A stretch of DNA of 64,000 nt, taken from assembly GCF_018143015.1 (NCBI RefSeq), contig NC_054755.1:6613624-6677623 (forward strand), read 5' to 3'. Of this stretch, positions 36,791 to 64,000 are shown piece by piece. Positions within the stretch are counted from its first letter, which is position 1. Each line of letters starts with the position of its first letter. Origin of the DNA: Lytechinus variegatus (taxonomy: Eukaryota; Echinodermata; Echinoidea; Temnopleuroida; Toxopneustidae). Below the pieces are notes generated by a model that saw nothing but the letters and a program-made list of their open reading frames with translations, was not told the origin of the DNA and ran no database searches. A program made the position numbers and the translations under genes.

Positions 36791-37116
36791 ATATAGTGAC
36801 ATGATTTTTTTTCCAACTCTTCACCTGATCTTATTTGTTTCCACTCGTCTTCCCCTCTTAGTTTCCTTTTCCTTTTCTGCTCTCTTTTACCTTTTTTTCT
36901 CTTTTTTTCTCCGCCAATCGGGGAGGGGGGTGGGCCCTCGGCCCCCCTGGATCCGACTATGCACAGCATCGTCAGTATGATAATGTATTGCCGCATAGCC
37001 TTTCTCCTGGCTACTATAGACAAGGCAAGGGTAGGGGGCGTTTGTAGCTGGAATTGGATCTAGGGGGCGGCGGGGACTGGAGGCTCTTGATTACCGAAAG
37101 ATAATTGGTATCGAAA
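35743..37116 (+). repeat. Source copy of a 1.37-kb segmental duplication
   Basis: Matches 40,927-42,297 in the same orientation with few differences, from TTGATATTCCGATATAAAAA to TAATTGGTATCGAAAAA. The 3' part includes a pyrimidine-rich tract and TCGTCAGTATGATAATGTAT. Frames inside it (100 and 89 codons, opposite strands) overlap each other and are not convincing genes. Confidence 0.9.
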
Positions 37117-37119
37117 AAA

Positions 37120-38229: not shown

Positions 38230-38781
38230 TATTTGCTTTCCAACATGTCCAATGTGCAGCAATGACCAAGAGAGGCAATATGGTACTATCTATAGGGATG
38301 ATCAAGCGCAACTTTACATATAAAAACATACAAGTGATCCTGAAACTGTACAGATCGCTGGTACGACCACACTTGGACTATGCAATGCAGACTTGGAACC
38401 CATACCTAGCAAAGGACAAAAAAATACTGGAGAAGGTCCAAGCAAGAGCTACGAAAATGATCCCTGATATCCATGATCTACCCTAAGAAGACAGGCTCGC
38501 CAGACTACGTTAGAAAGAAGGAGAGAAACATACAAAACATTCAAACATATCGAATTATTACCCAAATGGAAAAATCAAACCCAGAGAGTAGAGTGTGTCA
38601 GAACAAGAGGACACTCTCTTAAATTTGCCAAGTAACGATCTAGACTGGATATAAGGAAACACTTCTTTAGCCAAAGGGTTGTCAATCAATGGAATCAACT
38701 CCCACAGTCCACAATTGAGGCACCAACACTCCTCCAATTTAAGACACAATTATCAAAATTGGGTTTTTAAATGGGCTCCTA
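38230..38781 (+). pseudogene. LINE reverse transcriptase C-terminus, broken
   Basis: Encodes LYRSLVRPHLDYAMQTWNPY and LEKVQARATKMIPDI, the C-terminal signature of jockey/CR1-type reverse transcriptases, followed by a stop at 38,484-38,486 and further stops and frameshifts through about 38,770. The 3' tail runs directly into the first unit of the tandem array at 38,782. Confidence 0.85.
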
Positions 38782-39149
38782 AAACTGGACTCATGAAAAG
38801 GTTTTGGGACAAATATCAATGAATCATTTTTTGTTCGTTTTATCTGACCAAGAACTCACAATTTCAGGCAATTTTGAAATCCCCAAACTTAAGTCATGTT
38901 GCAATTCCATCATAAACATATTTTCACTCTGTTTGTTTATTTGCCTTTGACATTCATCGTTTCAAAACTTAATCTACCATTTTTGCTTGTCAAATCATTA
39001 TCAGGTTTTCACTAATGACAAATAAATTTCTCATATCAAAGTAATATTTTTTTCATGAACCATCTGTTAAAAACGAATATAATTTTTTTTCACTATAGCG
39101 TAAAGGATTTGTGTCAACTTGAACAAATTTGCATCTTCCTTTTAGCCAA

Positions 39150-39554
39150 GAAAGTCTGCCGTGATTGAGTGCAAAAGAACGATGGCGCCAAAAATGCACA
39201 TTAGGCAAACTTTCGAGAAACTTTGCGAGCAGCCGGTTGGTGTCCTGCACGTTCGAGTTGAAATTCGGCTTCCAATTCGGCACGAACAGACGAGGGATAA
39301 TACCACAAACGAGTACATGGCGAATGCCAGGTATGCGCGAAATACGAAGCGCCAGGTCGACGATTGAAAGCACCGTGGATTCGGTAGTCGCGCGCCCGTC
39401 ACACAGGTCGTTGGACCCGAGATCGAGCACCACGGCATCTGGAGAGAGATTCCAGACGAGATCAAGCTGCGCTGCCGCAGAAAATACACTGCCCGGTTGA
39501 TCGTGCCCGACATCGTGCATGAAAGTGAGAACGGAAGATTTCTCTAGACCGAGA
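39150..39554 (-). pseudogene. SGNH hydrolase fragment, first array unit
   Basis: Only the middle of the gene remains (about residues 46-179). A deletion on one side removed the Ser28 block and promoter, joining CTAGACCGAGA to spacer GCACTAATTTGAATG. A deletion on the other removed the Asp183-His186 block, joining spacer TTTAGCCAAG to AAAGTCTGCC. The open frame that runs through (39,053-39,637) is a chance fusion and lacks two of the three catalytic residues. Confidence 0.9.
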
Positions 39555-40926
39555 TGCACTAATTTGAATGAAAAAGTTTGCAGAGAGGCCCGTAGTCTAT
39601 GCATACCATTATAAAAAGAATTGTTCATTGCTTGCATTTTCTTCGTAGAAATACCCCCAAACTAATTCATTAATTACGATTCAGGCATCTTGTTGTTTAT
39701 TACCTCTCATTTATTTTCGATATATTTATTCATCTTTCTAATTCTTGTTTCAATGAAATTTCCATCATTTTTCAAATCTATCCCCAAGCATTTTGCTCTC
39801 AAGAAACTTAATACTGAAGTATGTTATGTCTAAAAATACGCATGTGTGAAATAATATTTACGAGAAATATAATTAAACGGAAGAAAATAAATGTTCGTTT
39901 TAATTGAATTGAATTAAAAGTACAGATATTTTAACATTTTATGCGAGGGCTAATTTTATTACAAATCATGAAGTTTTGGTAAAGGTTAAAACACACATTC
40001 ATTGGGACTATAATCATTTCTTTTATTTCAATTTTACCGAAAGTTATCTGACTTCTACTTCAACTTCTGTTGATCATCTCTTTGACGAGAAAAAAATAAT
40101 TGCACTGGTGATCCAGTTGAGCCCTCTCTCGGCAATTACAATATATATTCCGAAAACAACACCGTATAATATAACATCGTGGCTTAAGCCGTATAAAAAA
40201 GCTATCAAATGTGTATCTTCCTCTATTCCAATCTTTTAGAAATGAATTCATACCAAAAGGGAGGGGACTAGTGAAACTGGACTCATGAAAAGGTTTTGGG
40301 ACAAATATCAATGAATCATTTTTTGTTCGTTTTATCTGACCAAGAACTCACAATTTGAGGCAATTTTGAAATCCCCAAACTTAAGTCATGTTGCAATTCC
40401 ATCATAAACATATTTTCACTCGGTTTGTTTATTTGCCTATGACATTCATTGTTTCAAAACTTAATCTACCATTTTTGCTTGTCAAATCATTATCAGGTTT
40501 TCACTAATGACAAATAAATTTCTCATATCAAAGTAATATTTTTTTCATGAACCATCTGTTAAAAACGAATATACATTTTTTCACTATAGCGTAAAGGATT
40601 TGTGTCAACTAAAACGAATTTGCATCTTAATATTTCCTTTTAGCCAAGAAATTTGAATTTCCGATTTTTGATATAGATTTGAATTACAATTTCCGATTCG
40701 TTGAGATTGTGAAACTCTGCAAGAATTAATTCCGCTTTGCATAAATCCGGCAGGCTACCAAAGCACACGCTTATAATTGTGTAGGCTTATTAGTACCGTC
40801 TTGGATAGCATACCATCATAAAAATATAAGATTTTCTAAAAAAAATTGTGTTGCAAGAAATGAGATAGGATTAAGCGCACAGCGCCTGATAAAATACGAT
40901 CGAGCAGCAACAAGCTACCCCGCAAA

Positions 40927-42297
40927 TTGATATTCCGATATAAAAAAAGTCAATCTAAGCATTATTATTCATTTATTTATTTAAAATGGGTTATTTCTAC
41001 AGCGGCTGAAAAGCTGAATTGCATAACCCTTTACATTAATTTACATAAAACTACAATCAATATAAAAAAGCTAAATTTACACAAATTCTACATCATAAGG
41101 AATATCAAAACACATAAACGGTTGTTTATCATCATGTTCGGGGCGCATGTAATAAATTATTACCTTCATCCCCATAATTACAGACGTTGTGTAGGAAAAT
41201 TGTGAAGTGGATATGGATTGCACGTAATAAATTATGCCAGCGCGAAGCGCAGGCTGATATATTTGTAATTATTATTTTGACCTGCGACTGAGACATTCAA
41301 AGAACATACGTCATCATATTATGAAAATTATGACTATCCTCTCATTCATCCACGCGAGAAAAAACTTGCCGATATTCCATTCTGAAAAAAAGGAATTCTA
41401 GGAATTCATAAAAATTATCTTATTTAATAATTTAATAGGCCTAATGTGAGCCAAAATTTTGTTGATAACAAGGCCTAAAAAATTGACAGTTTGTAATTAT
41501 GAATAAGATGGGTAGATAACAATTGATCATGCGAGCGCAAACCACGAGCCCGTTTTTCATTGATAAACTGTCATGAAAAGGAGATTTTTAAAGACGTTTG
41601 TTATAAAATTGTATAAAGGTATACATAACTCAGTCAAAGTACGAGCGCGCAGCGCTAGCTGACCTGAAAAGAGATATTTTTAGAACTTTTAAGGAATACA
41701 CGAGGAGGATATGTACTTGACAAATCAAATAATACGAGAGCGAAGAACAAGCTAAAAATGTTCATACCATAAACCGGACATGTTGCAAAGTACTTTTTTT
41801 TCAATTTAGTTTGTAACTAAAACAAAATAATGAAAGTTCGATGCTCGAGTTGAAATGTGTTTTGTTTATCAACTTCAAACTTTATATTCTAAGCTCTATA
41901 TAAGCCCATTGAACAAGAAACGTATCATCGATAAGCCAATGCAAGTACGAAGCGCGAGCGAAAATTTTATATAGTGACATGATTTTTTTTTCCACCTCTT
42001 CACCTGATCTTATTTGTTTCCACTCGTCTTCCCCTCTTAGTTTCCTTTTCCTTTTCTGCTCTCTTTTACCTTTTTTTCTCTTTTTTTCTCCGCCAATCGG
42101 GGGAGGGGGTGGGCCCTCTGCCCCCCTGACTCCGACTATGCACAGCATCGTCAGTATGATAATGTATTGCCGCATAGCCTTTCTCCAAGCTACTATAGAC
42201 AAGGCAAGGGTAGGGGGCGTTTGTAGCTGGAATTGGATCTAGGGGGCGGCGGGGAGTGGAGGCTCTTGATTACCGAAAGATAATTGGTATCGAAAAA
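40927..42297 (+). repeat. Inserted copy of the 1.37-kb flanking segment
   Basis: Replaces about 1.16 kb of the second array unit: spacer runs to CTACCCCGCAAA, then the foreign segment, then the unit resumes at ATCTTTCATAATTTGGTG. The missing piece corresponds to 43,954-45,111 of the next unit, which is the whole hydrolase gene with its promoter. Junctions show no more than a few bases of shared sequence. Source: 35,743-37,116. Confidence 0.9.
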
Positions 42298-44037
42298 TCT
42301 TTCATAATTTGGTGAAAAGTCTCGGCCAATCACATTGCTCGGCTAAATTAGAACTTTAATGTATCAATCTTATTCTGTAGCTTAATTCGATACATTGCTG
42401 GCACCAACAATGTCTTTCCTAAATAAAGATGAATGAATGTATTGCATGCACGTGATTCGAATTCAACGACCAAACACATTTTTACAAGAAGTTGTTTCTG
42501 AATTAGAAACGACAATCAACTCATCTCTGTTGAAACGAGTAGGACTTTTATTGAAAGTTGAAATAGTCAGATGTTATGTAAATCAAGTATTCCAAACGAT
42601 GCTTTTGCACTAATTTGAATGAAAAAGTTTGCAGATAGGCCCGTAATCTATGCATACCATTATAAAAAGAATTGTTCATTGCTTGCATTTTCTTCGTAGA
42701 AATACCCCCAAACTAATTCATTAATTACGATTCAGGCATCTTGTTGTTTATTACCTCTCATTTATTTTCGATATATTTATTCATCTTTCTAATTCTTGTT
42801 TCAATGAAATTTCCATCATTTTTCAAATCTATCCCCAAGCATTTTGCTCTCAAGAAACTTAATACTGAAGTATGTTATGTCTAAAAATACGCATGTGTGA
42901 AATAATATTTACGAGAAATATAATTAAACGGAAGAAAATAAATGTTCGTTTTAATTGAATTGAATTAAAAGTACAGATATTTTAACATTTTATGCGAGGG
43001 CTAATTTTATTACAAATCATGAAGTTTTGGTAAAGGTTAAAACACACATTCATTGGGACTATAATCATTTCTTTTATTTCAATTTTACCGAAAGTTATCT
43101 GACTTCTACTTCAACTTCTGTTGATCATCTCTTTGACGAGAAAAAAATAATTGCACTGGTGATCCAGTTGAGCCCTCTCTCGGCAATTACAATATATATT
43201 CCGAAAACAACACCGTATAATATAACATCGTGGCTTAAGCCGTATAAAAAAGCTATCAAATGTGTATCTTCCTCTATTCCAATCTTTTAGAAATGAATTC
43301 ATACCAAAAGGGAGGGGACTAGTGAAACTAGTGAATCATGAATGAATCATTTTTTGTTCGTTTTATCTGACCAAGAACTCACAATTTGAGGCAATTTTGA
43401 AATCCCCAAACTTAAGTCATGTTGCAATTCCATCATAAACATATTTTCACTCGGTTTGTTTATTTGCCTATGACATTCATTGTTTCAAAACTTAATCTAC
43501 CATTTTTGCTTGTCAAATCATTATCAGGTTTTCACTAATGACAAATAAATTTCTCATATCAAAGTAATATTTTTTTCATGAACCATCTGTTAAAAACGAA
43601 TATACATTTTTTCACTATAGCGTAAAGGATTTGTGTCAACTAAAACGAATTTGCATCTTAATATTTCCTTTTAGCCAAGAAATTTGAATTTCCGATTTTT
43701 GATATAGATTTGAATTACAATTTCCGATTCGTTGAGATTGTGAAACTCTGCAAGAATTAATTCCGCTTTGCATAAATCCGGCAGGCTACCAAAGCACACG
43801 CTTATAATTGTGTAGGCTTATTAGTACCGTCTTGGATAGCATACCATCATAAAAATATAAGATTTTCTAAAAAAAATTGTTGCAAGAAATGAAATAGGAT
43901 TAAGCGCACAGCGCCTGATAAAATACGATCGAGCAGCAACAAGCTACCCCGCAAACATTTCCTCTCTGCCGTTAGCATCGAGTCGAATTATTGCTAATCG
44001 CGATTGAAAATAATATTTGAAAAAAGGTCATTTCAGC

Positions 44038-44670
44038 TCAATCCATCTTATAAGCCTTCATGACGGCGCCGCGAATGCTACGGTAATACCTCAACATACC
44101 AGCATCGTTAAAGTGGAACCCATCCGACGAGAAAAGTCTGCCGTGATTGAGTGCAAAAGAACGATGGCGCCAAAAATGCACATTAGGCAAACTTTCGAGA
44201 AACTTTGCGAGCAGCCGGTTGGTGTCCTGCACGTTCGAGTTGAAATTCGGCTTCCAATTCGGCACGAACAGACGAGGGATAATACCACAAACGAGTACAT
44301 GGCGAATGCCAGGTATGCGCGAAATACGAAGCGCCAGGTCGACGATTGAAAGCACCGTGGATTCGGTAGTCGCGCGCCCGTCACACAGGTCGTTGGACCC
44401 GAGATCGAGCACCACGGCATCTGGAGAGAGATTCCAGACGAGATCAAGCTGCGCTGCCGCAGAAAATACACTGCCCGGTTGATCGTGCCCGACATCGTGC
44501 ATGAAAGTGAGAACGGAAGATTTCTCTAGACCGAGATTATCCCTCTTGGGATCGCGAGCGATGTACTGATTAAGACGGCTGATGTAACTATGACCGAGTA
44601 CAAGGACGACGGGCGATTCGCGATCATCGCAAAGTTCAGGAGAGCTGCATGACATGCTTGAGGTAGACAT
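44038..44670 (-). CDS. SGNH-fold hydrolase, array unit 3 (reference copy)
   Basis: A 210-residue protein from the first ATG (44,668-44,670); the frame stays open eight codons upstream but without an ATG. SGNH blocks: GHSY with nucleophile Ser28 (block I), a Gly in HDVGHDQPG (61 or 66, block II), LGSND with Asn93 (block III), DGFH with Asp183 and His186 (block V). The C-terminal FWRHRSF and RYYRSIRGAV blocks match hydrolases carried by tyrosine-recombinase retroelements (Ngaro/DIRS type) and similar mobile elements, as I recall them. No signal peptide or membrane segment, so cytosolic or nuclear action is likely; the substrate is unknown (family members are esterases or lipases). A minus-strand AATAAA lies about 575 bases downstream near 43,460. 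The gene block is GC-richer than its spacer. Confidence 0.85.
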   Translation of the reverse strand: MSTSSMSCSSPELCDDRESPVVLVLGHSYISRLNQYIARDPKRDNLGLEKSSVLTFMHDVGHDQPGSVFSAAAQLDLVWNLSPDAVVLDLGSNDLCDGRATTESTVLSIVDLALRISRIPGIRHVLVCGIIPRLFVPNWKPNFNSNVQDTNRLLAKFLESLPNVHFWRHRSFALNHGRLFSSDGFHFNDAGMLRYYRSIRGAVMKAYKMD

Positions 44671-44803
44671 AATCAATTCGAAAACTGCGACCACAAGTGC
44701 GAGCGAAATATGAAGCGAGCGAGTAACTCAAGAAACCAAGTACGGGTAATTCAAAAACGAAAATGGCACAGCGTGTTGGCAAGCTCAAGAAGGTCTAGAA
44801 GTA

Positions 44804-44957
44804 GACTGAATTTTGAGAGGGAAATTGCAGTATTTATCCATGCCATCATCGTTGAATACGCTGCGGAGATTGCCCCTTAATTGCATTGCGACGGGATTAG
44901 CCATGACTTTTGACCAATGAGAAAGCTCCACTGCCAGTACAATAGAAGTCGACCAAT
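44804..44957 (-). promoter_or_regulatory. RNA polymerase II-type promoter of the hydrolase gene
   Basis: Minus strand: ATAAATA (TATA box) at 44,831-44,837; initiator TCAGTC at 44,804-44,809 with its A at 44,807, exactly 30 bases from the TATA start; inverted CCAAT boxes (ATTGG) at 44,914-44,918 and 44,953-44,957, about 110 and 150 bases upstream. This predicts a 137-base 5' UTR. The same block lies at 47,618-47,771, 50,429-50,582, 53,246-53,399, 56,058-56,211, 58,869-59,022 and 61,681-61,834. A third CCAAT, at 45,139-45,143 in this unit, also recurs in the other units. Confidence 0.6.
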
Positions 44958-46851
44958 TAGCGACCCTTTAACGCCGGGGCATAATGGCGCGAAGACGAGC
45001 TAATTGCACCCATTAAGACAATAGGACAATAGCAGGTGGACCTCATGTTACGTAACTCTCGCATCTTCGCCCCCATAGTTCTGGGCTTGTTATTCAAAAT
45101 TAATTGGCAATCTTTCATAATTTGGTGAAAAGTCTCGGCCAATCACATTGCTCGGCTAAATTAGAACTTTAATGTATCAATCTTATTCTGTAGCTTAATT
45201 CGATACATTGCTGGCACCAACAATGTCTTTCCTAAATAAAGATGAATGAATGTATTGCATGCACGTGATTCGAATTCAACGACCAAACACATTTTTACAA
45301 GAAGTTGTTTCTGAATTAGAAACGACAATCAACTCATCTCTGTTGAAACGAGTAGGACTTTTATTGAAAGTTGAAATAGTCAGATGTTATGTAAATCAAG
45401 TATTCCAAACGATGCTTTTGCACTAATTTGAATGAAAAAGTTTGCAGATAGGCCCGTAATCTATGCATACCATTATAAAAAGAATTGTTCATTGCTTGCA
45501 TTTTCTTCGTAGAAATACCCCCAAACTAATTCATTAATTACGATTCAGGCATCTTGTTGTTTATTACCTCTCATTTATTTTCGATATATTTATTCATCTT
45601 TCTAATTGTTGTTTCAATGAAATTTCCATCATTTTTCAAATCTATCCCCAAGCATTTTGCTCTCAAGAAACTTAATACTGAAGTATGTTATGTCTAAAAA
45701 TACGCATGTGTGAAATAATATTTACGAGAAATATAATTAAACGGAAGAAAATAAATGTTCGTTTTAATTGAATTGAATTAAAAGTACAGATATTTTAACA
45801 TTTTATGCGAGGGCTAATTTTATTACAAATCATGAAGTTTTGGTAAAGGTTAAAACACACATTCATTGGGACTATAATCATTTCTTTTATTTCAATTTTA
45901 CCGAAAGTTATCTGACTTCTACTTCAACTTCTGTTGATCATCTCTTTGACGAGAAAAAATAATTGCACTGGTGATCCAGTTGAGCCCTCTCTCGGCAATT
46001 ACAATATATATTCCGAAAACAACACCGTATAATATAACATCGTGGCTTAAGCCGTATAAAAAAGCTATCAAATGTGTATCTTCCTCTATTCCAATCTTTT
46101 AGAAATGAATTCATACCAAAAGGGAGGGGACTAGTGAAACTAGTGAATCATGAATGAATCATTTTTTGTTCGTTTTATCTGACCAAGAACTCACAATTTG
46201 AGGCAATTTTGAAATCCCAAAACTTGAGTCATGTTGCAATTCCATCATCAACATATTTTCACTCGGTTTGTTTATTTGCCTATGACATTCATTGTTTCAA
46301 AACTTAATCTACCATTTTTGCTTGTCAAATCATTATCAGGTTTTCACTAATGACAAATAAATTTCTCATATCAAAGTAATATTTTTTTCATGAACCATCT
46401 GTTAAAAACGAATATACATTTTTTCACTATAGCGTAAAGGATTTGTGTCAACTAAAACGAATTTGCATCTTAATATTTCCTTTTAGCCAAGAAATTTGAA
46501 TTTCCGATTTTTGATATAGATTTGAATTACAATTTCCGATTCGTTGAGATTGTGAAACTCTGCAAGAATTAATTCCGCTTTGCATAAATCCGGCAGGCTA
46601 CCAAAGCACACGCTTATAATTGTGTAGGCTTATTAGTACCGTCTTGGATAGCATACCATCATAAAAATATAAGATTTTCTAAAAAAATTATTTTGCAAGA
46701 AATGAGATAGGATTAAGCGCACAGCGCCTGATAAAATACGATCGAGCAGCAACAAGCTACCCCGCAAACATTTCCTCTCTGCCGTTAGCATCGAGTCGAA
46801 TTATTGCTAATCGCGATTGAAAATAATATTTGAAAAAAAGGTCATTTCAGC

Positions 46852-47484
46852 TCAATCCATCTTATAAGCCTTCATGACGGCGCCGCGAATGCTACGGTAA
46901 TACCTCAACATACCAGCATCGTTAAAGTGGAACCCATCCGACGAGAAAAGTCTGCCGTGATTGAGTGCAAAAGAACGATGGCGCCAAAAATGCACATTAG
47001 GCAAACTTTCGAGAAACTTTGCGAGCAGCCGGTTGGTGTCCTGCACGTTCGAGTTGAAATTCGGCTTCCAATTCGGCACGAACAGACGAGGGATAATACC
47101 ACAAACGAGTACGTGGCGAATGCCAGGTATGCGCGAAATACGAAGCGCCAGGTCGACGATTGAAAGCACCGTGGATTCGGTAGTCGCGCGCCCGTCACAC
47201 AGGTCGTTGGACCCGAGATCGAGCACCACGGCATCTGGAGAGAGATTCCAGACGAGATCAAGCTGCGCTGCCGCAGAAAATACACTGCCCGGTTGATCGT
47301 GCCCGACATCGTGCATGAAAGTGAGAACGGAAGATTTCTCTAGACCGAGATTATCCCTCTTGGGATCGCGAGCGATGTACTGATTAAGACGGCTGATGTA
47401 ACTATGACCGAGTACAAGGACGACGGGCGATTCGCGATCATCGCAAAGTTCAGGAGAGCTGCATGACATGCTTGAGGTAGACAT
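46852..47484 (-). CDS. SGNH-fold hydrolase, array unit 4
   Basis: Protein identical to the copy at 44,038-44,670. One silent difference: the codon for His124 is CAC instead of CAT. Promoter block intact at 47,618-47,771. Confidence 0.85.
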   Translation of the reverse strand: MSTSSMSCSSPELCDDRESPVVLVLGHSYISRLNQYIARDPKRDNLGLEKSSVLTFMHDVGHDQPGSVFSAAAQLDLVWNLSPDAVVLDLGSNDLCDGRATTESTVLSIVDLALRISRIPGIRHVLVCGIIPRLFVPNWKPNFNSNVQDTNRLLAKFLESLPNVHFWRHRSFALNHGRLFSSDGFHFNDAGMLRYYRSIRGAVMKAYKMD

Positions 47485-49662
47485 AATCAATTCGAAAACT
47501 GCGACCACAAGTGCGAGCGAAATATGAAGCGAGCGAGTAACTCAAGAAACCAAGTACGGGTAATTCAAAAACGAAAATGGCACAGCGTGTTGGCAAGCTC
47601 AAGAAGGTCTAGAAGTAGACTGAATTTTGAGAGGGAAATTGCAGTATTTATCCATGCCATCATCGTTGAATACGCTGCGGAGATTGCCCCTTAATTGCAT
47701 TGCGACGGGATTAGCCATGACTTTTGACCAATGAGAAAGCTCCACTGCCAGTACAATAGAAGTTGACCAATTAGCGACCCTTTAACGCCGGGGCATAATG
47801 GCGCGAAGACGAGCTAATTGCACCCATAAAGACAATAGGACAATAGCAGGTGGACCTCATGTTACGTAACTCTCGCATCTTCGCCCCCATAGTTCTGGGC
47901 TTGTTATTCAAAATTAATTGGCAATCTTTCATAATTTGGTGAAAAGTCTCGGCCAATCACATTGCTCGGCTAAATTAGAACTTTAATGTATCAATCTTAT
48001 TCTGTAGCTTAATTCGATACATTCCTGGCACCAACAATGTCTTTCCTAAATAAAGATGAATGAATGTATTGCATGCACGTGATTCGAATTCAACGACCAA
48101 ACACATTTTTACAAGAAGTTGTTTCTGAATTAGAAACGACAATCAACTCATCTCTGTTGAAACGAGTAGGACTTTTATTGAAAGTTGAAATAGTCAGATG
48201 TTATGTAAATCAAGTATTCCAAACGATGCTTTTGCACTAATTTGAATGAAAAAGTTTGCAGATAGGCCCGTAATCTATGCATACCATTATAAAAAGAATT
48301 GTTCATTGCTTGCATTTTCTTCGTAGAAATACCCCCAAACTAATTCATTAATTACGATTCAGGCATCTTGTTGTTTATTACCTCTCATTTATTTTCGATA
48401 TATTTATTCATCTTTCTAATTCTTGTTTCAATGAAATTTCCATCATTTTTCAAATCTATCCCCAAGCATTTTGCTCTCAAGAAACTTAATACTGAAGTAT
48501 GTTATGTCTAAAAATACGCATGTGTGAAATAATATTTACGAGAAATATAATTAAACGGAAGAAAATAAATGTTCGTTTTAATTGAATTGAATTAAAAGTA
48601 CAGATATTTTAACATTTTATGCGAGGGCTAATTTTATTATAAATCATGAAGTTTTGGTAAAGGTTAAAACACACATTCATTGGGACTATAATCATTTCTT
48701 TTATTTCAATTTTACCGAAAGTTATCTGACTTCTTCTTCAACTTCTGTTGATCATCTCTTTGACGAGAAAAAATAATCGCTGGTGATCCAGTTGAGCCCT
48801 CTCTCGGCAATTACAATATATATTCCGAAAACAACACCGTATAATATAACATCGTGGCTTAAGCCGTATAAAAAAGCTATCAAATGTGTATCTTCCTCTA
48901 TTCCAATCTTTTAGAAATGAATTCATACCAAAAGGGAGGGGACTAGTGAAACTAGTGAATCATGAATGAATCATTTTTTATTCGTTTTATCTGACCAAGA
49001 ACTCACAATTTGAGGCAATTTTGAAATCCCAAAACTTGAGTCATGTTGCAATTCCATCATCAACATATTTTCATTCGGTTTGTTTATTTGCCTATGACAT
49101 TCATTGTTTCAAAACTTAATCTACCATTTTTGCTTGTCAAATCATTATCAGGTTTTCACTAATGACAAATAAATTTCTCATATCAAAGTAATATTTTTTT
49201 CATGAACCATCTGTTAAAAACGAATATACATTTTTTCACTATAGCGTAAAGGATTTGTGTCAACTAAAACGAATTTGCATCTTAATATTTCCTTTTAGCC
49301 AAGAAATTTGAATTTCCGATTTTTGATATAGATTTGAATTACAATTTCCGATTCGTTGAGATTGTGAAACTCTGCAAGAATTAATTCCGCTTTGCATAAA
49401 TCCGGCAGGCTACCAAAGCACACGCTTATAATTGTGTAGGCTTATTAGTACCGTCTTGGATAGCATACCATCATAAAAATATAAGATTTTCTAAAAAAAA
49501 TTGTTGCAAGAAATGAGATAGGATTAAGCGCACAGCGCCTGATAAAATACGATCGATAAGCAACAAGCTACCCCGCAAACATTTCCTCTCTGCCGTTAGC
49601 ATCGAGTCGAATTATTGCTAATCGCGATTGAAAATAATATTTGAAAAAAAGGTCATTTCAGC

Positions 49663-50295
49663 TCAATCCATCTTATAAGCCTTCATGACGGCGCCGCGAA
49701 TGCTACGGTAATACCTCAACATACCAGCATCGTTAAAGTGGAACCCATCCGACGAGAAAAGTCTGCCGTGATTGAGTGCAAAAGAACGATGGCGCCAAAA
49801 ATGCACATTAGGCAAACTTTCGAGAAACTTTGCGAGCAGCCGGTTGGTGTCCTGCACGTTCGAGTTGAAATTCGGCTTCCAATTCGGCACGAACAGACGA
49901 GGGATAATACCACAAACGAGTACGTGGCGAATGCCAGGTATGCGCGAAATACGAAGCGCCAGGTCGACGATTGAAAGCACCGTGGATTCGGTAGTCGCGC
50001 GCCCGTCACACAGGTCGTTGGACCCGAGATCGAGCACCACGGCATCTGGAGAGAGATTCCAGACGAGATCAAGCTGCGCTGCCGCAGAAAATACACTGCC
50101 CGGTTGATCGTGCCCGACATCGTGCATGAAAGTGAGAACGGAAGATTTCTCTAGACCGAGATTATCCCTCTTGGGATCGCGAGCGATGTACTGATTAAGA
50201 CGGCTGATGTAACTATGACCGAGTACAAGGACGACGGGCGATTCGCGATCATCGCAAAGTTCAGGAGAGCTGCATGACATGCTTGAGGTAGACAT
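49663..50295 (-). CDS. SGNH-fold hydrolase, array unit 5
   Basis: Identical protein; shares the silent CAC at His124 with its neighbours at 46,852 and 52,480. The spacer of this unit (48,949-51,764) is the longest regular one, with an extra CGA near 50,950. Confidence 0.85.
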   Translation of the reverse strand: MSTSSMSCSSPELCDDRESPVVLVLGHSYISRLNQYIARDPKRDNLGLEKSSVLTFMHDVGHDQPGSVFSAAAQLDLVWNLSPDAVVLDLGSNDLCDGRATTESTVLSIVDLALRISRIPGIRHVLVCGIIPRLFVPNWKPNFNSNVQDTNRLLAKFLESLPNVHFWRHRSFALNHGRLFSSDGFHFNDAGMLRYYRSIRGAVMKAYKMD

Positions 50296-52479: not shown

Positions 52480-53112
52480 TCAATCCATCTTATAAGCCTT
52501 CATGACGGCGCCGCGAATGCTACGGTAATACCTCAACATACCAGCATCGTTAAAGTGGAACCCATCCGACGAGAAAAGTCTGCCGTGATTGAGTGCAAAA
52601 GAACGATGGCGCCAAAAATGCACATTAGGCAAACTTTCGAGAAACTTTGCGAGCAGCCGGTTGGTGTCCTGCACGTTCGAGTTGAAATTCGGCTTCCAAT
52701 TCGGCACGAACAGACGAGGGATAATACCACAAACGAGTACGTGGCGAATGCCAGGTATGCGCGAAATACGAAGCGCCAGGTCGACGATTGAAAGCACCGT
52801 GGATTCGGTAGTCGCGCGCCCGTCACACAGGTCGTTGGACCCGAGATCGAGCACCACGGCATCTGGAGAGAGATTCCAGACGAGATCAAGCTGCGCTGCC
52901 GCAGAAAATACACTGCCCGGTTGATCGTGCCCGACATCGTGCATGAAAGTGAGAACGGAAGATTTCTCTAGACCGAGATTATCCCTCTTGGGATCGCGAG
53001 CGATGTACTGATTAAGACGGCTGATGTAACTATGACCGAGTACAAGGACGACGGGCGATTCGCGATCATCGCAAAGTTCAGGAGAGCTGCATGACATGCT
53101 TGAGGTAGACAT
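52480..53112 (-). CDS. SGNH-fold hydrolase, array unit 6
   Basis: Identical protein, His124 codon CAC. TATA, initiator and both CCAAT boxes are unchanged upstream (53,246-53,399). Confidence 0.85.
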   Translation of the reverse strand: MSTSSMSCSSPELCDDRESPVVLVLGHSYISRLNQYIARDPKRDNLGLEKSSVLTFMHDVGHDQPGSVFSAAAQLDLVWNLSPDAVVLDLGSNDLCDGRATTESTVLSIVDLALRISRIPGIRHVLVCGIIPRLFVPNWKPNFNSNVQDTNRLLAKFLESLPNVHFWRHRSFALNHGRLFSSDGFHFNDAGMLRYYRSIRGAVMKAYKMD

Positions 53113-55291
53113 AATCAATTCGAAAACTGCGACCACAAGTGCGAGCGAAATATGAAGCGAGCGAGTAACTCAAGAAACCAAGTACGGGTAATTCAAAAAC
53201 GAAAATGGCACAGCGTGTTGGCAAGCTCAAGAAGGTCTAGAAGTAGACTGAATTTTGAGAGGGAAATTGCAGTATTTATCCATGCCATCATCGTTGAATA
53301 CGCTGCGGAGATTGCCCCTTAATTGCATTGCGACGGGATTAGCCATGACTTTTGACCAATGAGAAAGCTCCACTGCCAGTACAATAGAAGTTGACCAATT
53401 AGCGACCCTTTAACGCCGGGGCATAATGGCGCGAAGACGAGCTAATTGCACCCATAAAGACAATAGGACAATAGCAGGTGGACCTCATGTTACGTAACTC
53501 TCGCATCTTCGCCCCCATAGTTCTGGGCTTGTTATTCAAAATTAATTGGCAATCTTTCATAATTTGGTGAAAAGTCTCGGCCAATCACATTGCTCGGCTA
53601 AATTAGAACTTTAATGTATCAATCTTATTCTGTAGCTTAATTCGATACATTGCTGGCACCAACAATGTCTTTCCTAAATAAAGATGAATGAATGTATTGC
53701 ATGCACGTGATTCGAATTCAACGACCAAACACATTTTTACAAGAAGTTGTTTCTGAATTAGAAACGACAATCAACTCATCTCTGTTGAAACGAGTAGGAC
53801 TTTTATTGAAAGTTGAAATAGTCAGATGTTATGTAAATCAAGTATTCCAAACGATGCTTTTGCACTAATTTGAATGAAAAAGTTTGCAGATAGGCCCGTA
53901 ATCTATGCATACCATTATAAAAAGAATTGTTCATTGCTTGCATTTTCTTCGTAGAAATACCCCCAAACTAATTCATTAATTACGATTCAGGCATCTTGTT
54001 GTTTATTACCTCTCATTTATTTTCGATATATTTATTCATCTTTCTAATTCTTGTTTCAATGAAATTTCCATCATTTTTCAAATCTATCCCCAAGCATTTT
54101 GCTCTCAAGAAACTTAATACTGAAGTATGTTATGTCTAAAAATACGCATGTGTGAAATAATATTTACGAGAAATATAATTAAACGGAAGAAAATAAATGT
54201 TCGTTTTAATTGAATTGAATTAAAAGTACAGATATTTTAACATTTTATGCGAGGGCTAATTTTATTATAAATCATGAAGTTTTGGTAAAGGTTAAAACAC
54301 ACATTCATTGGGACTATAATCATTTCTTTTATTTCAATTTTACCGAAAGTTATCTGACTTCTACTTCAACTTCTGTTGATCATCTCTTTGACGAGAAAAA
54401 ATAATCGCTGGTGATCCAGTTGAGCCCTCTCTCGGCAATTACAATATATATTCCGAAAACAACACCGTATAATATAACATCGTGGCTTAAGCCGTATAAA
54501 AAAGCTATCAAATGTGTATCTTCCTCTATTCCAATCTTTTAGAAATGAATTCATACCAAAAGGGAGGGGACTAGTGAAACTAGTGAATCATGAATGAATC
54601 ATTTTTTATTCGTTTTATCTGACCAAGAACTCACAATTTGAGGCAATTTTGAAATCCCAAAACTTGAGTCATGTTGCAATTCCATCATAAACATATTTTC
54701 ACTCGGTTTGTTTATTTGCCTATGACATTCATTGTTTCAAAACTTAATCTACCATTTTTGCTTGTCAAATCATTATCAGGTTTTCACTAATGACAAATAA
54801 ATTTCTCATATCAAAGTAATATTTTTTTCATGAACCATCTGTTAAAAACGAATATACATTTTTTCACTATAGCGTAAAGGATTTGTGTCAACTAAAACGA
54901 ATTTGCATCTTAATATTTCCTTTTAGCCAAGAAATTTGAATTTCCGATTTTTGATATAGATTTGAATTACAATTTCCGATTCGTTGAGATTGTGAAACTC
55001 TGCAAGAATTAATTCCGCTTTGCATAAATCCGGCAGGCTACCAAAGCACACGCTTATAATTGTGTAGGCTTATTAGTACCGTCTTGGATAGCATACCATC
55101 ATAAAAATATAAGATTTTCTAAAAAAAAATTGTTGCAAGAAATGAGATAGGATTAAGCGCACAGCGCCTGATAAAATACGATCGAGCAGCAACAAGCTAC
55201 CCCGCAAACATTTCCTCTCTGCCGTTAGCATCGAGTCGAATTATTGCTAATCGCGATTGAAAATAATATTTGAAAAAAAGGTCATTTCAGC

Positions 55292-55924
55292 TCAATCCAT
55301 CTTATAAGCCTTCATGACGGCGCCGCGAATGCTACGGTAATACCTCAACATACCAGCATCGTTAAAGTGGAACCCATCCGACGAGAAAAGTCTGCCGTGA
55401 TTGAGTGCAAAAGAACGATGGCGCCAAAAATGCACATTAGGCAAACTTTCGAGAAACTTTGCGAGCAGCCGGTTGGTGTCCTGCACGTTCGAGTTGAAAT
55501 TCGGCTTCCAATTCGGCACGAACAGACGAGGGATAATACCACAAACGAGTACATGGCGAATGCCAGGGATGCGCGAAATACGAAGCGCCAGGTCGACGAT
55601 TGAAAGCACCGTGGATTCGGTTGTCGCGCGCCCGTCACACAGGTCGTTGGACCCGAGATCGAGCACCACGGCATCTGGAGAGAGATTCCAGACGAGATCA
55701 AGCTGCGCTGCCGCAGAAAATACACTGCCCGGTTGATCGTGCCCGACATCGTGCATGAAAGTGAGAACGGAAGATTTCTCTAGACCGAGATTATCCCTCT
55801 TGGGATCGCGAGCGATGTACTGATTAAGACGGCTGATGTAACTATGACCGAGTACAAGGACGACGGGCGATTCGCGATCATCGCAAAGTTCAGGAGAGCT
55901 GCATGACATGCTTGAGGTAGACAT
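55292..55924 (-). CDS. SGNH-fold hydrolase, array unit 7
   Basis: Identical protein. This copy has two private silent changes, ATA to ATC at Ile119 and ACT to ACA at Thr101, and the CAT form at His124, which makes it the most diverged intact copy at DNA level. Confidence 0.85.
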   Translation of the reverse strand: MSTSSMSCSSPELCDDRESPVVLVLGHSYISRLNQYIARDPKRDNLGLEKSSVLTFMHDVGHDQPGSVFSAAAQLDLVWNLSPDAVVLDLGSNDLCDGRATTESTVLSIVDLALRISRIPGIRHVLVCGIIPRLFVPNWKPNFNSNVQDTNRLLAKFLESLPNVHFWRHRSFALNHGRLFSSDGFHFNDAGMLRYYRSIRGAVMKAYKMD

Positions 55925-58102
55925 AATCAATTCGAAAACTGCGACCACAAGTGCGAGCGAAATATGAAGCGAGCGAGTAACTCAAGAAACCAAGTACGGG
56001 TAATTCAAAAACGAAAATGGCACAGCGTGTTGGCAAGCTCAAGAAGGTCTAGAAGTAGACTGAATTTTGAGAGGGAAATTGCAGTATTTATCCATGCCAT
56101 CATCGTTGAATACGCTGCGGAGATTGCCCCTTAATTGCATTGCGACGGGATTAGCCATGACTTTTGACCAATGAGAAAGCTCCACTGCCAGTACAATAGA
56201 AGTTGACCAATTAGCGACCCTTTAACGCCGGGGCATAATGGCGCGAAGACGAGCTAATTGCACCCATAAAGACAATAGGACAATAGCAGGTGGACCTCAT
56301 GTTACGTAACTCTCGCATCTTCGCCCCCATAGTTCTGGGCTTGTTATTCAAAATTAATTGGCAATCTTTCATAATTTGGTGAAAAGTCTCGGCCAATCAC
56401 ATTGCTCGGCTAAATTAGAACTTTAATGTATCAATCTTATTCTGTAGCTTAATTCGATACATTGCTGGCACCAACAATGTCTTTCCTAAATAAAGATGAA
56501 TGAATGTATTGCATGCACGTGATTCGAATTCAACGACCAAACACATTTTTACAAGAAGTTGTTTCTGAATTAGAAACGACAATCAACTCATCTCTGTTGA
56601 AACGAGTAGGACTTTTATTGAAAGTTGAAATAGTCAGATGTTATGTAAATCAAGTATTCCAAACGATGCTTTTGCACTAATTTGAATGAAAAAGTTTGCA
56701 GATAGGCCCGTAATCTATGCATACCATTATAAAAAGAATTGTTCATTGCTTGCATTTTCTTCGTAGAAATACCCCCAAACTAATTCATTAATTACGATTC
56801 AGGCATCTTGTTGTTTATTACCTCTCATTTATTTTCGATATATTTATTCATCTTTCTAATTCTTGTTTCAATGAAATTTCCATCATTTTTCAAATCTATC
56901 CCCAAGCATTTTGCTCTCAAGAAACTTAATACTGAAGTATGTTATGTCTAAAAATACGCATGTGTGAAATAATATTTACGAGAAATATAATTAAACGGAA
57001 GAAAATAAATGTTCGTTTTAATTGAATTGAATTAAAAGTACAGATATTTTAACATTTTATGCGAGGGCTAATTTTATTATAAATCATGAAGTTTTGGTAA
57101 AGGTTAAAACACACATTCATTGGGACTATAATCATTTCTTTTATTTCAATTTTACCGAAAGTTATCTGACTTCTACTTCAACTTCTGTTGATCATCTCTT
57201 TGACGAGAAAAAATAATCGCTGGTGATCCAGTTGAGCCCTCTCTCGGCAATTACAATATATATTCCGAAAACAACACCGTATAATATAACATCGTGGCTT
57301 AAGCCGTATAAAAAAGCTATCAAATGTGTATCTTCCTCTATTCCAATCTTTTAGAAATGAATTCATACCAAAAGGGAGGGGACTAGTGAAACTAGTGAAT
57401 CATGAATGAATCATTTTTTGTTCGTTTTATCTGACCAAGAACTCACAATTTGAGGCAATTTTGAAATCCCCAAACTTAAGTCATGTTGCAATTCCATCAT
57501 AAACATATTTTCACTCGGTTTGTTTATTTGCCTATGACATTCATTGTTTCAAAACTTAATCTACCATTTTTGCTTGTCAAATCATTATCAGGTTTTCACT
57601 AATGACAAATAAATTTCTCATATCAAAGTAATATTTTTTCATGAACCATCTGTTAAAAACGAATATACATTTTTTCACTATAGCGTAAAGGATTTGTGTC
57701 AACTAAAACGAATTTGCATCTTAATATTTCCTTTTAGCCAAGAAATTTGAATTTCCGATTTTTGATATAGATTTGAATTACAATTTCCGATTCGTTGAGA
57801 TTGTGAAACTCTGCAAGAATTAATTCCGCTTTGCATAAATCCGGCAGGCTACCAAAGCACACGCTTATAATTGTGTAGGCTTATTAGTACCGTCTTGGAT
57901 AGCATACCATCATAAAAATATAAGATTTTCTAAAAAAAAATTGTTGCAAGAAATGAGATAGGATTAAGCGCACAGCGCCTGATAAAATACGATCGAGCAG
58001 CAACAAGCTACCCCGCAAACATTTCCTCTCTGCCGTTAGCATCGAGTCGAATTATTGCTAATCGCGATTGAAAATAATATTTGAAAAAAAGGTCATTTCA
58101 GC

Positions 58103-58735
58103 TCAATCCATCTTATAAGCCTTCATGACGGCGCCGCGAATGCTACGGTAATACCTCAACATACCAGCATCGTTAAAGTGGAACCCATCCGACGAGAAAA
58201 GTCTGCCGTGATTGAGTGCAAAAGAACGATGGCGCCAAAAATGCACATTAGGCAAACTTTCGAGAAACTTTGCGAGCAGCCGGTTGGTGTCCTGCACGTT
58301 CGAGTTGAAATTCGGCTTCCAATTCGGCACGAACAGACGAGGGATAATACCACAAACGAGTACATGGCGAATGCCAGGTATGCGCGAAATACGAAGCGCC
58401 AGGTCGACGATTGAAAGCACCGTGGATTCGGTAGTCGCGCGCCCGTCACACAGGTCGTTGGACCCGAGATCGAGCACCACGGCATCTGGAGAGAGATTCC
58501 AGACGAGATCAAGCTGCGCTGCCGCAGAAAATACACTGCCCGGTTGATCGTGCCCGACATCGTGCATGAAAGTGAGAACGGAAGATTTCTCTAGACCGAG
58601 ATTATCCCTCTTGGGATCGCGAGCGATGTACTGATTAAGACGGCTGATGTAACTATGACCGAGTACAAGGACGACGGGCGATTCGCGATCATCGCAAAGT
58701 TCAGGAGAGCTGCATGACATGCTTGAGGTAGACAT
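58103..58735 (-). CDS. SGNH-fold hydrolase, array unit 8
   Basis: Identical protein and, as far as read, the same ORF sequence as the reference copy at 44,038 (CAT at His124). Its unit has the shorter TAATCGCTGG spacer form near 60,027. Confidence 0.85.
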   Translation of the reverse strand: MSTSSMSCSSPELCDDRESPVVLVLGHSYISRLNQYIARDPKRDNLGLEKSSVLTFMHDVGHDQPGSVFSAAAQLDLVWNLSPDAVVLDLGSNDLCDGRATTESTVLSIVDLALRISRIPGIRHVLVCGIIPRLFVPNWKPNFNSNVQDTNRLLAKFLESLPNVHFWRHRSFALNHGRLFSSDGFHFNDAGMLRYYRSIRGAVMKAYKMD

Positions 58736-60914
58736 AATCAATTCGAAAACTGCGACCACAAGTGCGAGCGAAATATGAAGCGAGCGAGTAACTCAAGAAA
58801 CCAAGTACGGGTAATTCAAAAACGAAAATGGCACAGCGTGTTGGCAAGCTCAAGAAGGTCTAGAAGTAGACTGAATTTTGAGAGGGAAATTGCAGTATTT
58901 ATCCATGCCATCATCGTTGAATACGCTGCGGAGATTGCCCCTTAATTGCATTGCGACGGGATTAGCCATGACTTTTGACCAATGAGAAAGCTCCACTGCC
59001 AGTACAATAGAAGTTGACCAATTAGCGACCCTTTAACGCCGGGGCATAATGGCGCGAAGACGAGCTAATTGCACCCATAAAGACAATAGGACAATAGCAG
59101 GTGGACCTCATGTTACGTAACTCTCGCATCTTCGCCCCCATAGTTCTGGGCTTGTTATTCAAAATTAATTGGCAATCTTTCATAATTTGGTGAAAAGTCT
59201 CGGCCAATCACATTGCTCGGCTAAATTAGAATTTAATGTATCAATCTTATTCTGTAGCTTAATTCGATACATTGCTGGCACCAACAATGTCTTTCCTAAA
59301 TAAAGATGAATGAATGTATTGCATGCACGTGATTCGAATTCAACGACCAAACACATTTTTACAAGAAGTTGTTTCTGAATTAGAAACGACAATCAACTCA
59401 TCTCTGTTGAAACGAGTAGGACTTTTATTGAAAGTTGAAATAGTCAGATGTTATGTAAATCAAGTATTCCAAACGATGCTTTTGCACTAATTTGAATGAA
59501 AGAGTTTGCAGACAGGCCCGTAATCTATGCATACCATTATAAAAAGAATTGTTCATTGCTTGCATTTTCTTCGTAGAAATACCCCCAAACTAATTCATTA
59601 ATTACGATTCAGGCATCTTGTTGTTTATTACCTCTCATTTATTTTCGATATATTTATTCATCTTTCTAATTCTTGTTTCAATGAAATTTCCATCATTTTT
59701 CAAATCTATCCCCAAGCATTTTGCTCTCAAGAAACTTAATACTGAAGTATGTTATGTCTAAAAATACGCATGTGTGAAATAATATTTACGAGAAATATAA
59801 TTAAACGGAAGAAAATAAATGTTCGTTTTAATTGAATTGAATTAAAAGTACAGATATTTTAACATTTTATGCGAGGGCTAATTTTATTACAAATCATGAA
59901 GTTTTGGTAAAGGTTAAAACACACATTCATTGGGACTATAATCATTTCTTTTATTTCAATTTTACCGAAAGTTATCTGACTTCTACTTCAACTTCTGTTG
60001 ATCATCTCTTTGACGAGAAAAAATAATCGCTGGTGATCCAGTTGAGCCCTCTCTCGGCAATTACAATATATATTCCGAAAACAACACCGTATAATATAAC
60101 ATCGTGGCTTAAGCCGTATAAAAAAGCTATCAAATGTGTATCTTCCTCTATTCCAATCTTTTAGAAATGAATTCATACCAAAAGGGAGGGGACTAGTGAA
60201 ACTAGTGAATCATGAATGAATCATTTTTTGTTCGTTTTATCTGACCAAGAACTCACAATTTGAGGCAATTTTGAAATCCCAAAACTTGAGTCATGTTGCA
60301 ATTCCATCATAAACATATTTTCACTCGGTTTGTTTATTTGCCTATGACATTCATTGTTTCAAAACTTAATCTACCATTTTTTGCTTGTCAAATCATTATC
60401 AGGTTTTCACTAATGACAAATAAATTTCTCATATCAAAGTAATATTTTTTTCATGAACCATCTGTTAAAAACGAATATACAATTTTTCACTATAGCGTAA
60501 AGGATTTGTGTCAACTAAAACGAATTTGCATCTTAATATTTCCTTTTAGCCAAGAAATTTGAATTTCCGATTTTCGATATAGATTTGAATTACAATTTCC
60601 GATTCGTTGAGATTATGAAACTCTGCAAGAATTAATTCCGCTTTGCATAAATCCGGCGGGCTACCAAAGCACACGCTTATAATTGTGTAGGCTTATTAGT
60701 ACCGTCTTGGATAGCATACCATCATAAAAATATAAGATTTTCTAAAAAAAAATTGTTGCAAGAAATGAGATAGGATTAAGCGCACAGCGCCTGATAAAAT
60801 ACGATCGAGCAGCAACAAGCTACCCCGCAAACATTTCCTCTCTGCCGTTAGCATCGAGTCGAATTATTGCTAATCGCGATTGAAAATAATATTTGAAAAA
60901 AAGGTCATTTCAGC

Positions 60915-61547
60915 TCAATCCATCTTATAAGCCTTCATGACGGCGCCGCGAATGCTACGGTAATACCTCAACATACCAGCATCGTTAAAGTGGAACCCAT
61001 CCGACGAGAAAAGTCTGCCGTGATTGAGTGCAAAAGAACGATGGCGCCAAAAATGCACATTAGGCAAACTTTCGAGAAACTTTGCGAGCAGCCGGTTGGT
61101 GTCCTGCACGTTCGAGTTGAAATTCGGCTTCCAATTCGGCACGAACAGACGAGGGATAATACCACAAACGAGTACATGGCGAATGCCAGGTATGCGCGAA
61201 ATACGAAGCGCCAGGTCGACGATTGAAAGCACCGTGGATTCGGTAGTCGCGCGCCCGTCACACAGGTCGTTGGACCCGAGATCGAGCACCACGGCATCTG
61301 GAGAGAGATTCCAGACGAGATCAAGCTGCGCTGCCGCAGAAAATACACTGCCCGGTTGATCGTGCCCGACATCGTGCATGAAAGTGAGAACGGAAGATTT
61401 CTCTAGACCGAGATTATCCCTCTTGGGATCGCGAGCGATGTACTGATTAAGACGGCTGATGTAACTATGACCGAGTACAAGGACGACGGGCGATTCGCGA
61501 TCATCGCAAAGTTCAGGAGAGCTGCATGACATGCTTGAGGTAGACAT
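60915..61547 (-). CDS. SGNH-fold hydrolase, array unit 9
   Basis: Identical protein. The one base change near the start (CATATTCAATT instead of CATAATCAATT on the plus strand) lies just upstream of the ATG, in the predicted 5' UTR, and does not alter the protein. Confidence 0.85.
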   Translation of the reverse strand: MSTSSMSCSSPELCDDRESPVVLVLGHSYISRLNQYIARDPKRDNLGLEKSSVLTFMHDVGHDQPGSVFSAAAQLDLVWNLSPDAVVLDLGSNDLCDGRATTESTVLSIVDLALRISRIPGIRHVLVCGIIPRLFVPNWKPNFNSNVQDTNRLLAKFLESLPNVHFWRHRSFALNHGRLFSSDGFHFNDAGMLRYYRSIRGAVMKAYKMD

Positions 61548-63749
61548 ATTCAATTCGAAAACTGCGACCACAAGTGCGAGCGAAATATGAAGCGAGCGAG
61601 TAACTCAAGAAACCAAGTACGGGTAATTCAAAAACGAAAATGGCACAGCGTGTTGGCAAGCTCAAGAAGGTCTAGAAGTAGACTGAATTTTGAGAGGGAA
61701 ATTGCAGTATTTATCCATGCCATCATCGTTGAATACGCTGCGGAGATTGCCCCTTAATTGCATTGCGACGGGATTAGCCATGACTTTTGACCAATGAGAA
61801 AGCTCCACTGCCAGTACAATAGAAGTCGACCAATTAGCGACCCTTTAACGCCGGGGCATAATGGCGCGAAGACGAGCTAATTGCACCCATAAAGACAATA
61901 GGACAATAGCAGGTGGACCTCATGTTACGTAACTCTCGCATCTTCGCCCCCATAGTTCTGGGCTTGTTATTCAAAATTAATTGGCAATCTTTCATAATTT
62001 GGTGAAAAGTCTCGGCCAATCACATTGCTCGGCTAAATTAGAACTTTAATGTATCAATCTTATTCTGTAGCTTAATTCGATACATTGCTGGCACCAACAA
62101 TGTCTTTCCTAAATAAAGATGAATGAATGTATTGCATGCACGTGATTCGAATTCAACGACCAAACACATTTTTACAAGAAGTTGTTTCTGAATTAGAAAC
62201 GACAATCAACTCATCTCTGTTGAAACGAGTAGGACTTTTATTGAAAGTTGAAATAGTCAGATGTTATGTAAATCAAGTATTCCAAACGATGCTTTTGCAC
62301 TAATTTGAATGAAAAAGTTTGCAGATAGGCCCGTAATCTATGCATACCATTATAAAAAGAATTGTTCATTGCTTGCATTTTCTTCGTAGAAATACCCCCA
62401 AACTAATTCATTAATTACGATTCAGGCATCTTGTTGTTTATTACCTCTCATTTATTTTCGATATATTTATTCATCTTTCTAATTCTTGTTTCAATGAAAT
62501 TTCCATCATTTTTCAAATCTATCCCCAAGCATTTTGCTCTCAAGAAACTTAATACTGAAGTATGTTATGTCTAAAAATACGCATGTGTGAAATAATATTT
62601 ACGAGAAATATAATTAAAGGGAAGAAAATAAATGTTCGTTTTAATTGAATTGAATTAAAAGTACAGATATTTTAACATTTTATGCGAGGGCTAATTTTAT
62701 TACAAATCATGAAGTTTTGGTAAAGGTTAAAACACACATTCATTGGGACTATAATCATTTCTTTTATTTCAATTTTACCGAAAGTTATCTGACTTCTACT
62801 TCAACTTCTGTTGATCATCTCTTTGACGAGAAAAAATAATTGCACTGGTGATCCAGTTGAGCCCTCTCTCGGCAATTACAATATATATTCCGAAAACAAC
62901 ACCGTATAATATAACATCGTGGCTTAAGCCGTATAAAAAGCTATCAAATGTGTATCTTCCTCTATTCCAATCTTTTAGAAATGAATTCATACCAAAAGGG
63001 AGGGGACTAGTGAAACTAGTGAATCATGAATAAATCATTTTTTTGTTCGTTTTATCTGACCAAGAACTCACAATTTGAGGCAATTTTGAAATCCCAAAAC
63101 TTGAGTCATGTTGCAATTCCATCATAAACATATTTTCACTCGGTTTGTTTATTTGCCTATGACATTCATTGTTTCAAAACTTAATCTACCATTTTTGCTT
63201 GTCAAATCATTATCAGGTTTTCACTAATGACAAATAAATTTCTCATATCAAAGTAATATTTTTTTTTCATGAACCATCTGTTAAATACGAATATACATTT
63301 TTTCACTATAGCGTAAAGGATTTGTGTCAACTAAAACGAATTTGCATCTTAATATTTCCTTTTAGCCAAGAAATTTGAATTTCCGATTTTTTATATAGAT
63401 TTGAATTACAATTTCCGATTCGTTGAGATTGTGAAACTCTGCAAGAATAAAATCCGCTTTGCATAAATCCGGCAGGCTACCAAAGCACACGCTTATAATT
63501 GTGTAGGCTTATTAGTACCGTCTTGGATAGCATACCATCATAAAAATATAAGATTTTCTAAAAAAAAAATTGTTGCAAGAAATGAGATAGGATTAAGCGC
63601 ACAGCGCCTGATAAAATACGATCGAGCAGCAACAAGCTACCCCGCAAACATTTCCTCTCTGCCGTTAGCATCGAGTCGAATTATTGCTAATCGCATTGAA
63701 AATAATATTTGAAAAAAGGTCATTTCAGCTCAATCCATCTTATAAGCCT

Positions 63750-64000
63750 TCATGACGCGCCGCGAATGCTACGGTAATACCTCAACATACCAGCATCGTT
63801 AAAGTGGAACCCATCCGACGAGAAAAGTCTGCCGTGATTGAGTGCAAAAGAACGATGGCGCCAAAAATGCACATTAGGCAAACTTTCGAGAAACTTTGCG
63901 AGCAGCCGGTTGGTGTCCTGCACGTTCGAGTTGAAATTCGGCTTCCAATTCGGCACGAACAGACGAGGGATAATACCACAAACGAGTACATGGCGAATGC
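63750..64000 (-). CDS. SGNH-fold hydrolase, array unit 10, cut by window end, shifted C-terminus
   Basis: The C-terminal part of another copy; the gene start lies beyond the window. A one-base deletion near 63,757 (GACGCGCC for GACGGCGCC) changes the end: after RSIRGA the frame gives Ser and a stop at 63,750-63,752, losing the last eight residues. The DGFH block is upstream of the shift and intact, so activity is not excluded. The same unit has other small deletions nearby (TCGCATTG for TCGCGATTG). Confidence 0.8.
   Translation of the reverse strand, partial: IRHVLVCGIIPRLFVPNWKPNFNSNVQDTNRLLAKFLESLPNVHFWRHRSFALNHGRLFSSDGFHFNDAGMLRYYRSIRGAS

Follow-up and report, generated by a model that had tools for sequence, protein, structure and literature searches.

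We find that a 64,000-nucleotide stretch of the genome of the sea urchin Lytechinus variegatus (C16:6613624-6677623; hereafter the window) carries a tandem array of a single small gene encoding an SGNH/GDSL hydrolase, present in at least seven intact copies on the minus strand. Judged from its sequence, we regard the array as a real, functional-looking addition to the amplified gene arrays already known, and as unusual for the enzyme that it encodes. The explanation that we favor, and hold with moderate confidence to be the correct one, is that a host SGNH gene was amplified at one locus by unequal exchange and has been kept functional, probably for dosage.

Alignment of one unit (46000-48811, unit 2 below) as a reference to the window delimits seven full units of 2810-2816 bp each, which run head-to-tail from 43188 to 62876 and are 99.3-99.8% identical to the reference. 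Each of them contains one intact minus-strand hydrolase open reading frame (ORF), and the pattern that marks a tandem array, head-to-tail units with an intact gene in each, is seen in 7/7; the original prediction, made from the letters of the window, of at least seven intact same-strand copies in a tandem unit of ~2.81 kb is thereby confirmed. The units and their coding sequences (CDS) are as follows.

43188..45999, minus strand: unit 1, CDS 44038-44670
46000..48811, minus strand: unit 2 (reference), CDS 46852-47484
48812..51627, minus strand: unit 3, CDS 49663-50295
51628..54439, minus strand: unit 4, CDS 52480-53112
54440..57251, minus strand: unit 5, CDS 55292-55924
57252..60061, minus strand: unit 6, CDS 58103-58735
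60062..62876, minus strand: unit 7, CDS 60915-61547
62877..64000, minus strand: unit 8 (partial), ending at the window end, with 5,500 N next

Seven copies is a lower bound, because unit 8 runs into the 5,500 N that lie on the chromosome directly past the window end; to the right of these, the next 43,877 bases hold no array sequence (E 1e-10). The unit has no Rfam match to a structured RNA, and a dispersed repeat of ~77 bp, noted in unit 2 at 48520-48596, is ~79-88% identical to 30 places among the matches listed.

The encoded protein has the features expected of an SGNH hydrolase.

46852..47484, minus strand: SGNH hydrolase CDS, 210 amino acids (Pfam), with GHS (S28), G61, SND (N93), and DGFH (D183, H186)

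The CDS is unbroken from ATG to stop over 633 bp, with a GC content of 0.52 vs. 0.34 in the remainder of the unit, and all seven full units give the same 210-residue protein. It matches the Pfam families Lipase_GDSL_2 (PF13472; E 2.8e-9, 38.2 bits against a cut-off of 32.9) and Lipase_GDSL (PF00657; 34.4 bits against 23.6), and has no match in NCBIfam. The SGNH family is defined by four residues, S, G, N, and H, according to PMC4021074, and S28, G61, N93, and H186 are invariant across four aligned sequences, including a distant homologue described below (the alignment begins at residue 2 of the protein). A PDB profile search with these four sequences gives weak matches to the GDSL lipase 3p94 (E 0.0012) and to platelet-activating factor (PAF)-acetylhydrolase Ib chains (E 0.002-0.012), and the best E value with the single sequence is only 0.48. 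The N terminus is serine-rich, and because no signal peptide is evident by eye, the protein is probably intracellular.

A protein search of the genome (869.6 Mb in 33 contigs) returned 13 matches, nine of them from the array (the seven units, a piece at the left edge, and unit 8) and four from elsewhere: contig C14 has one (88% amino acid identity) and C15 has two (81%), and the fourth, on C4, is distant (26%). In the array, C14, and C15 genes the whole CDS lies in one open frame, making the coding sequence intronless, and it is the only part that BLASTN aligns between them (578-604 bp). By the Nei-Gojobori method, non-synonymous divergence (dN) between the array and C14 is 0.064 and synonymous divergence (dS) 0.81, a ratio of 0.08; the array and C15 give 0.13 and 1.14, a ratio of 0.11, and the ratio for C14 and C15 is 0.10. 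These low ratios indicate that the C14 and C15 homologues are under purifying selection.

Constraint on the protein is also seen within the array. Out of 31 substitution columns, 28 fall in the 2179 bp of non-coding sequence and three in the 633-bp CDS, all three synonymous, giving no non-synonymous changes where 6.2 are expected [P(0) = 0.002]. Four of the 28 non-coding columns, at unit positions 2118-2126, are in doubtful alignment; with these dropped P becomes 0.0048, and with one more dropped 0.0060. The two C15 copies, recently duplicated and lying 2 Mb apart in opposite orientation, behave in the same way: in their longest aligned block, 72 of 5493 flanking bases differ and 3 of 639 CDS bases, all synonymous, so that there are no amino acid changes against 6.4 expected (P 0.0016; density p 0.08). 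From such counts, selection appears to be preserving the array protein. The C15 copies themselves sit in an inverted segmental duplication (L013, L014) that is ~97.8% identical and internally rearranged.

The original prediction that every unit has its own promoter-like block also holds, in the form of a TATA-like box and an initiator-like motif, the distance between which is 28 bp in 7/7 units. In unit 2, these elements are located as follows.

47645..47651, minus strand: TATA-like box ATAAATA, 28 bp before TCAGTC
47618..47623, minus strand: initiator-like TCAGTC, predicted start site 47621
47728..47771, minus strand: two ATTGG (inverted CCAAT) boxes, upstream of the TATA box

The layout is common to the array and one homologue: in C14, 30 bp separate a TATA box from the TCAGTC that follows it, and ATTGG boxes lie upstream in both. 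A TATA box followed by TCAGTY at a spacing of 24-34 bp arises in only 2 of 2000 (array) and 3 of 2000 (C14) dinucleotide shuffles of the 400-bp upstream regions. Furthermore, a 173-bp copy of the 5' part of the array gene, with 97.7% identity, lies in a CTTT-rich tract on another contig (C17:20263308-20263480, L034) and extends into the CDS from a point 5 bp downstream of the predicted start, which is suggestive of a transcript.

Variants are shared among the units in patterns of the exchange type. The four-gamete test is failed by 19 of 45 pairs of informative sites (12/28 and 7/21 with stricter columns), as exchange between units predicts, and the array thus shows the homogenization by exchange looked for in tandem arrays. 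Private substitutions number two to six in each of six units; unit 4 has none.

Taken as a mechanism, the favored explanation would begin with a single-exon host SGNH hydrolase gene, equipped with its own TATA/initiator promoter, that underwent tandem duplication next to a gene containing DM10-domain exons, the 2.8-kb unit produced by this duplication carrying both promoter and CDS. Unequal exchange and conversion would have expanded and homogenized the array to at least seven intact units, with misaligned exchange altering copy number and spreading variants among units, and selection on the protein would purge damaged copies. The array would then most likely serve to boost the output of a small intracellular esterase in one short window of time (egg, early embryo, or germ line), the probable benefit being enzyme quantity when transcription is limiting, by analogy with histone repeats. 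We infer transcription, dosage benefit, esterase activity, cell location, and timing for the array gene, and amplification for dosage in the manner of those repeats seems a fair inference by analogy.

Several observations weigh against this explanation. The units are only ~0.5% diverged, so that ORF intactness alone could mean recent amplification, and the density of variable sites does not differ significantly between CDS and non-coding sequence (Fisher p 0.13; 0.24 without the doubtful columns). The promoter motifs were picked after inspection of the sequences, and the TATA/initiator pair is absent upstream of the C15 homologues. Alignment of whole upstream regions is not above shuffles for the array with C14 (80 of 500 reach the score) or with C15 (447 of 500), and exceeds them only weakly for C14 with C15 (24 of 500). 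Finally, unit 8 has a frameshift, a single 1-bp deletion in its ORF part, though at the gap edge, where it has several indels, most of them in single-base runs.

The alternative that survives best, unlikely in our estimation, is a domesticated retroelement hydrolase, that is, a Gypsy or tyrosine-recombinase SGNH ORF whose element was lost before the gene was amplified. The superfamily is indeed found both in host genes and in elements. A Pfam search of the genome for SGNH domains gave 104 matches, 77 of which share one profile range and a near-equal score and look like one dispersed family (two were fetched). One member, on C3 (L049:3-4312), has consecutive ORFs for a reverse transcriptase (PF00078, E 6e-13), a tyrosine recombinase (PF00589, E 1.3e-4, under its cut-off), and an SGNH hydrolase, an order that we take to be that of Ngaro/DIRS elements and one that agrees with the earlier claim that such hydrolases travel on tyrosine-recombinase retroelements. 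On C4 (L015:3522-5500), a Gypsy-type integrase ORF is followed by an SGNH hydrolase ORF; a search with the latter gave 125 match rows, the array family included, and many of its relatives match its two ends only, as if internally deleted. These Gypsy-family ORFs are the nearest SGNH proteins compared (24-29% amino acid identity), and in a tree of 15 sequences, all taken from this genome, the array family groups with them at a support of 96/95, a join flagged as possibly one of long branches. The absence of introns from the coding sequence in the array, C14, and C15 would also be expected of such an origin.

On the other side, the array-Gypsy join may be two long branches meeting; when the array family is left out, the Gypsy ORFs go to the tyrosine-recombinase type, albeit weakly (78/79). 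Descent may also have run the other way, from a host gene into the Gypsy element. As the direct source, a tyrosine-recombinase retroelement is weakly disfavored, the grouping of the array with that type being weakly rejected by the approximately unbiased test (p-AU 0.036, the group having been chosen with the tree already in view). The Ngaro/DIRS-type and Gypsy ORFs of this genome resemble the array gene in superfamily and in being a single ORF, but they adjoin reverse transcriptase and tyrosine recombinase or integrase ORFs, recur genome-wide, and are at most ~30% identical to the array family. Around C14 and C15, no element ORF was noticed in the ORF lists (by eye, no Pfam search), and relatives in viral contigs amounted to 42 pattern matches, with 0 confirmed. 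An old transposon origin of the array gene may be entertained; the capture from a transposon that the original prediction put forward as one possibility is not supported, since intronless homologues under purifying selection occur at three other places and the retroelement proteins are distant. We consider distinctly unlikely the fuller scenario in which a retroelement-type hydrolase turned into a host family and one locus became a histone-like dosage array that serves the egg or embryo and differs in copy number from one individual to the next.

The array itself does not look like an element. No mobilization enzyme is seen among the unit ORFs of at least 40 amino acids (by eye; Pfam search of the SGNH frame only), just as had been predicted, and likewise the reverse transcriptase and tyrosine recombinase that adjoin the SGNH ORF in Ngaro/DIRS elements are missing from these ORFs. 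The unit flanks are not dispersed, only short pieces being found off the locus (40 of 181 candidates scored; 11 of 11 in a second search), and the terminal repeats of the unit are short and chance-like, none of them long. We thus reject a non-autonomous mobile element and, with it, the suggestion that the array is a satellite formed from one.

A passive satellite is a different proposal: a gene-bearing unit recently expanded by unequal crossing-over, its ORFs intact through youth alone. Units well under 1% apart, a scrambled left edge, the exchange patterns, and the non-significant density test all fit it, but the lack of amino acid changes over seven units (P 0.002-0.006) and the strong constraint on the homologues do not, and we judge it improbable. 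An assembly artefact, with reads of one locus repeated head to tail, could account for the array stopping at 5,500 N and for the gap-edge indels of unit 8, but is very improbable given the substitutions (two to six) that six of seven units have as their own and a left-edge structure not seen in other units.

Amplification of a functional host gene, as we favor, has parallels in known systems. Sea-urchin early histone repeats are likewise arranged in tandem and homogenized, and their genes lack introns and have TATA promoters; each unit holds five different genes and there are hundreds of copies, whereas the array holds a single enzyme gene. To our knowledge, it is uncommon for an animal enzyme gene to be maintained in regular head-to-tail repeats of a single short unit. 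If expressed, the array would offer a compact example, in a model group for early development, of selection for dosage acting on an enzyme, as well as a route to asking why SGNH hydrolases recur in host genes and retroelements. The sea-urchin hbox12/pmar1/micro1 genes, a precedent for multicopy genes that vary in number, are also clustered, with 6 to 22 copies in seven P. lividus individuals and with coding sequence conserved and non-coding sequence diverged among species, but they are homeobox regulators and not enzymes (PMC5370098). SGNH hydrolases are also encoded by texim and teximY, multicopy animal genes that are related to PAF-acetylhydrolases and retrotransposon esterases and for which sea-urchin sequences with no Helitron association have been reported (PMC4021074). 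The fish texim genes are Helitron-linked, there are three copies over ~300 kb rather than 2.8-kb head-to-tail units, and teximYa and b have 15 exons against one coding exon in the array gene (PMC4021074). The multi-exon structure of platyfish texim is not found here, the array, C14, and C15 CDS each being one open frame, with introns possible in untranslated regions. No sea-urchin SGNH tandem array is named in the literature titles and abstract openings searched, with partial coverage.

The left edge of the array is irregular. The original prediction had the array start at 38782, and this stands as the outer limit of array-derived sequence; 38782-43187 is scrambled and does not consist of regular units.

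38782..40926, minus strand: scrambled left edge, unit fragments and a truncated ORF (alignment to unit 2, ORF list)
40927..42297, plus strand: copy of repeat X (1.37 kb), 96% identical to 35743-37118
42296..43187, minus strand: rest of the edge unit, upstream part (alignment to unit 2)

Numbered on the plus strand of unit 46000-48811, the pieces follow in the order 147-472, 948-1352, 2234-2812, 1-769, repeat X, and 1924-2812. A truncated chimeric ORF lies at 39053-39637, and in the edge unit repeat X replaces unit positions 770-1923, that is, the CDS and core promoter. Other longer matches of repeat X have 68-77% identity and lie on many contigs (40 of 4352 candidates scored). Decay of this kind is common at the ends of arrays.

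Further left in the window, 38260-38780 resembles, by eye, part of the reverse transcriptase of a long interspersed nuclear element, with stops in its frames. DM10-domain exons (E 2.7e-26 and 4.8e-16) lie at 29395-31857 on the minus strand, which is also that of the array genes, and belong to what is presumably an EFHC-like ciliary gene. Two clusters of ~182-bp tandem repeats in opposite orientation occupy 9842-10692 and 12211-13191, and a 329-residue ORF at 2794-3783 (minus) resembles an immunoglobulin-type membrane protein by eye, with nothing significant in Pfam. Elsewhere in the genome, bindin (PF02084), a sea-urchin sperm protein, has four matches (best E 4e-66), with two bindin-like loci on C13, at 18601949 and 24947663.

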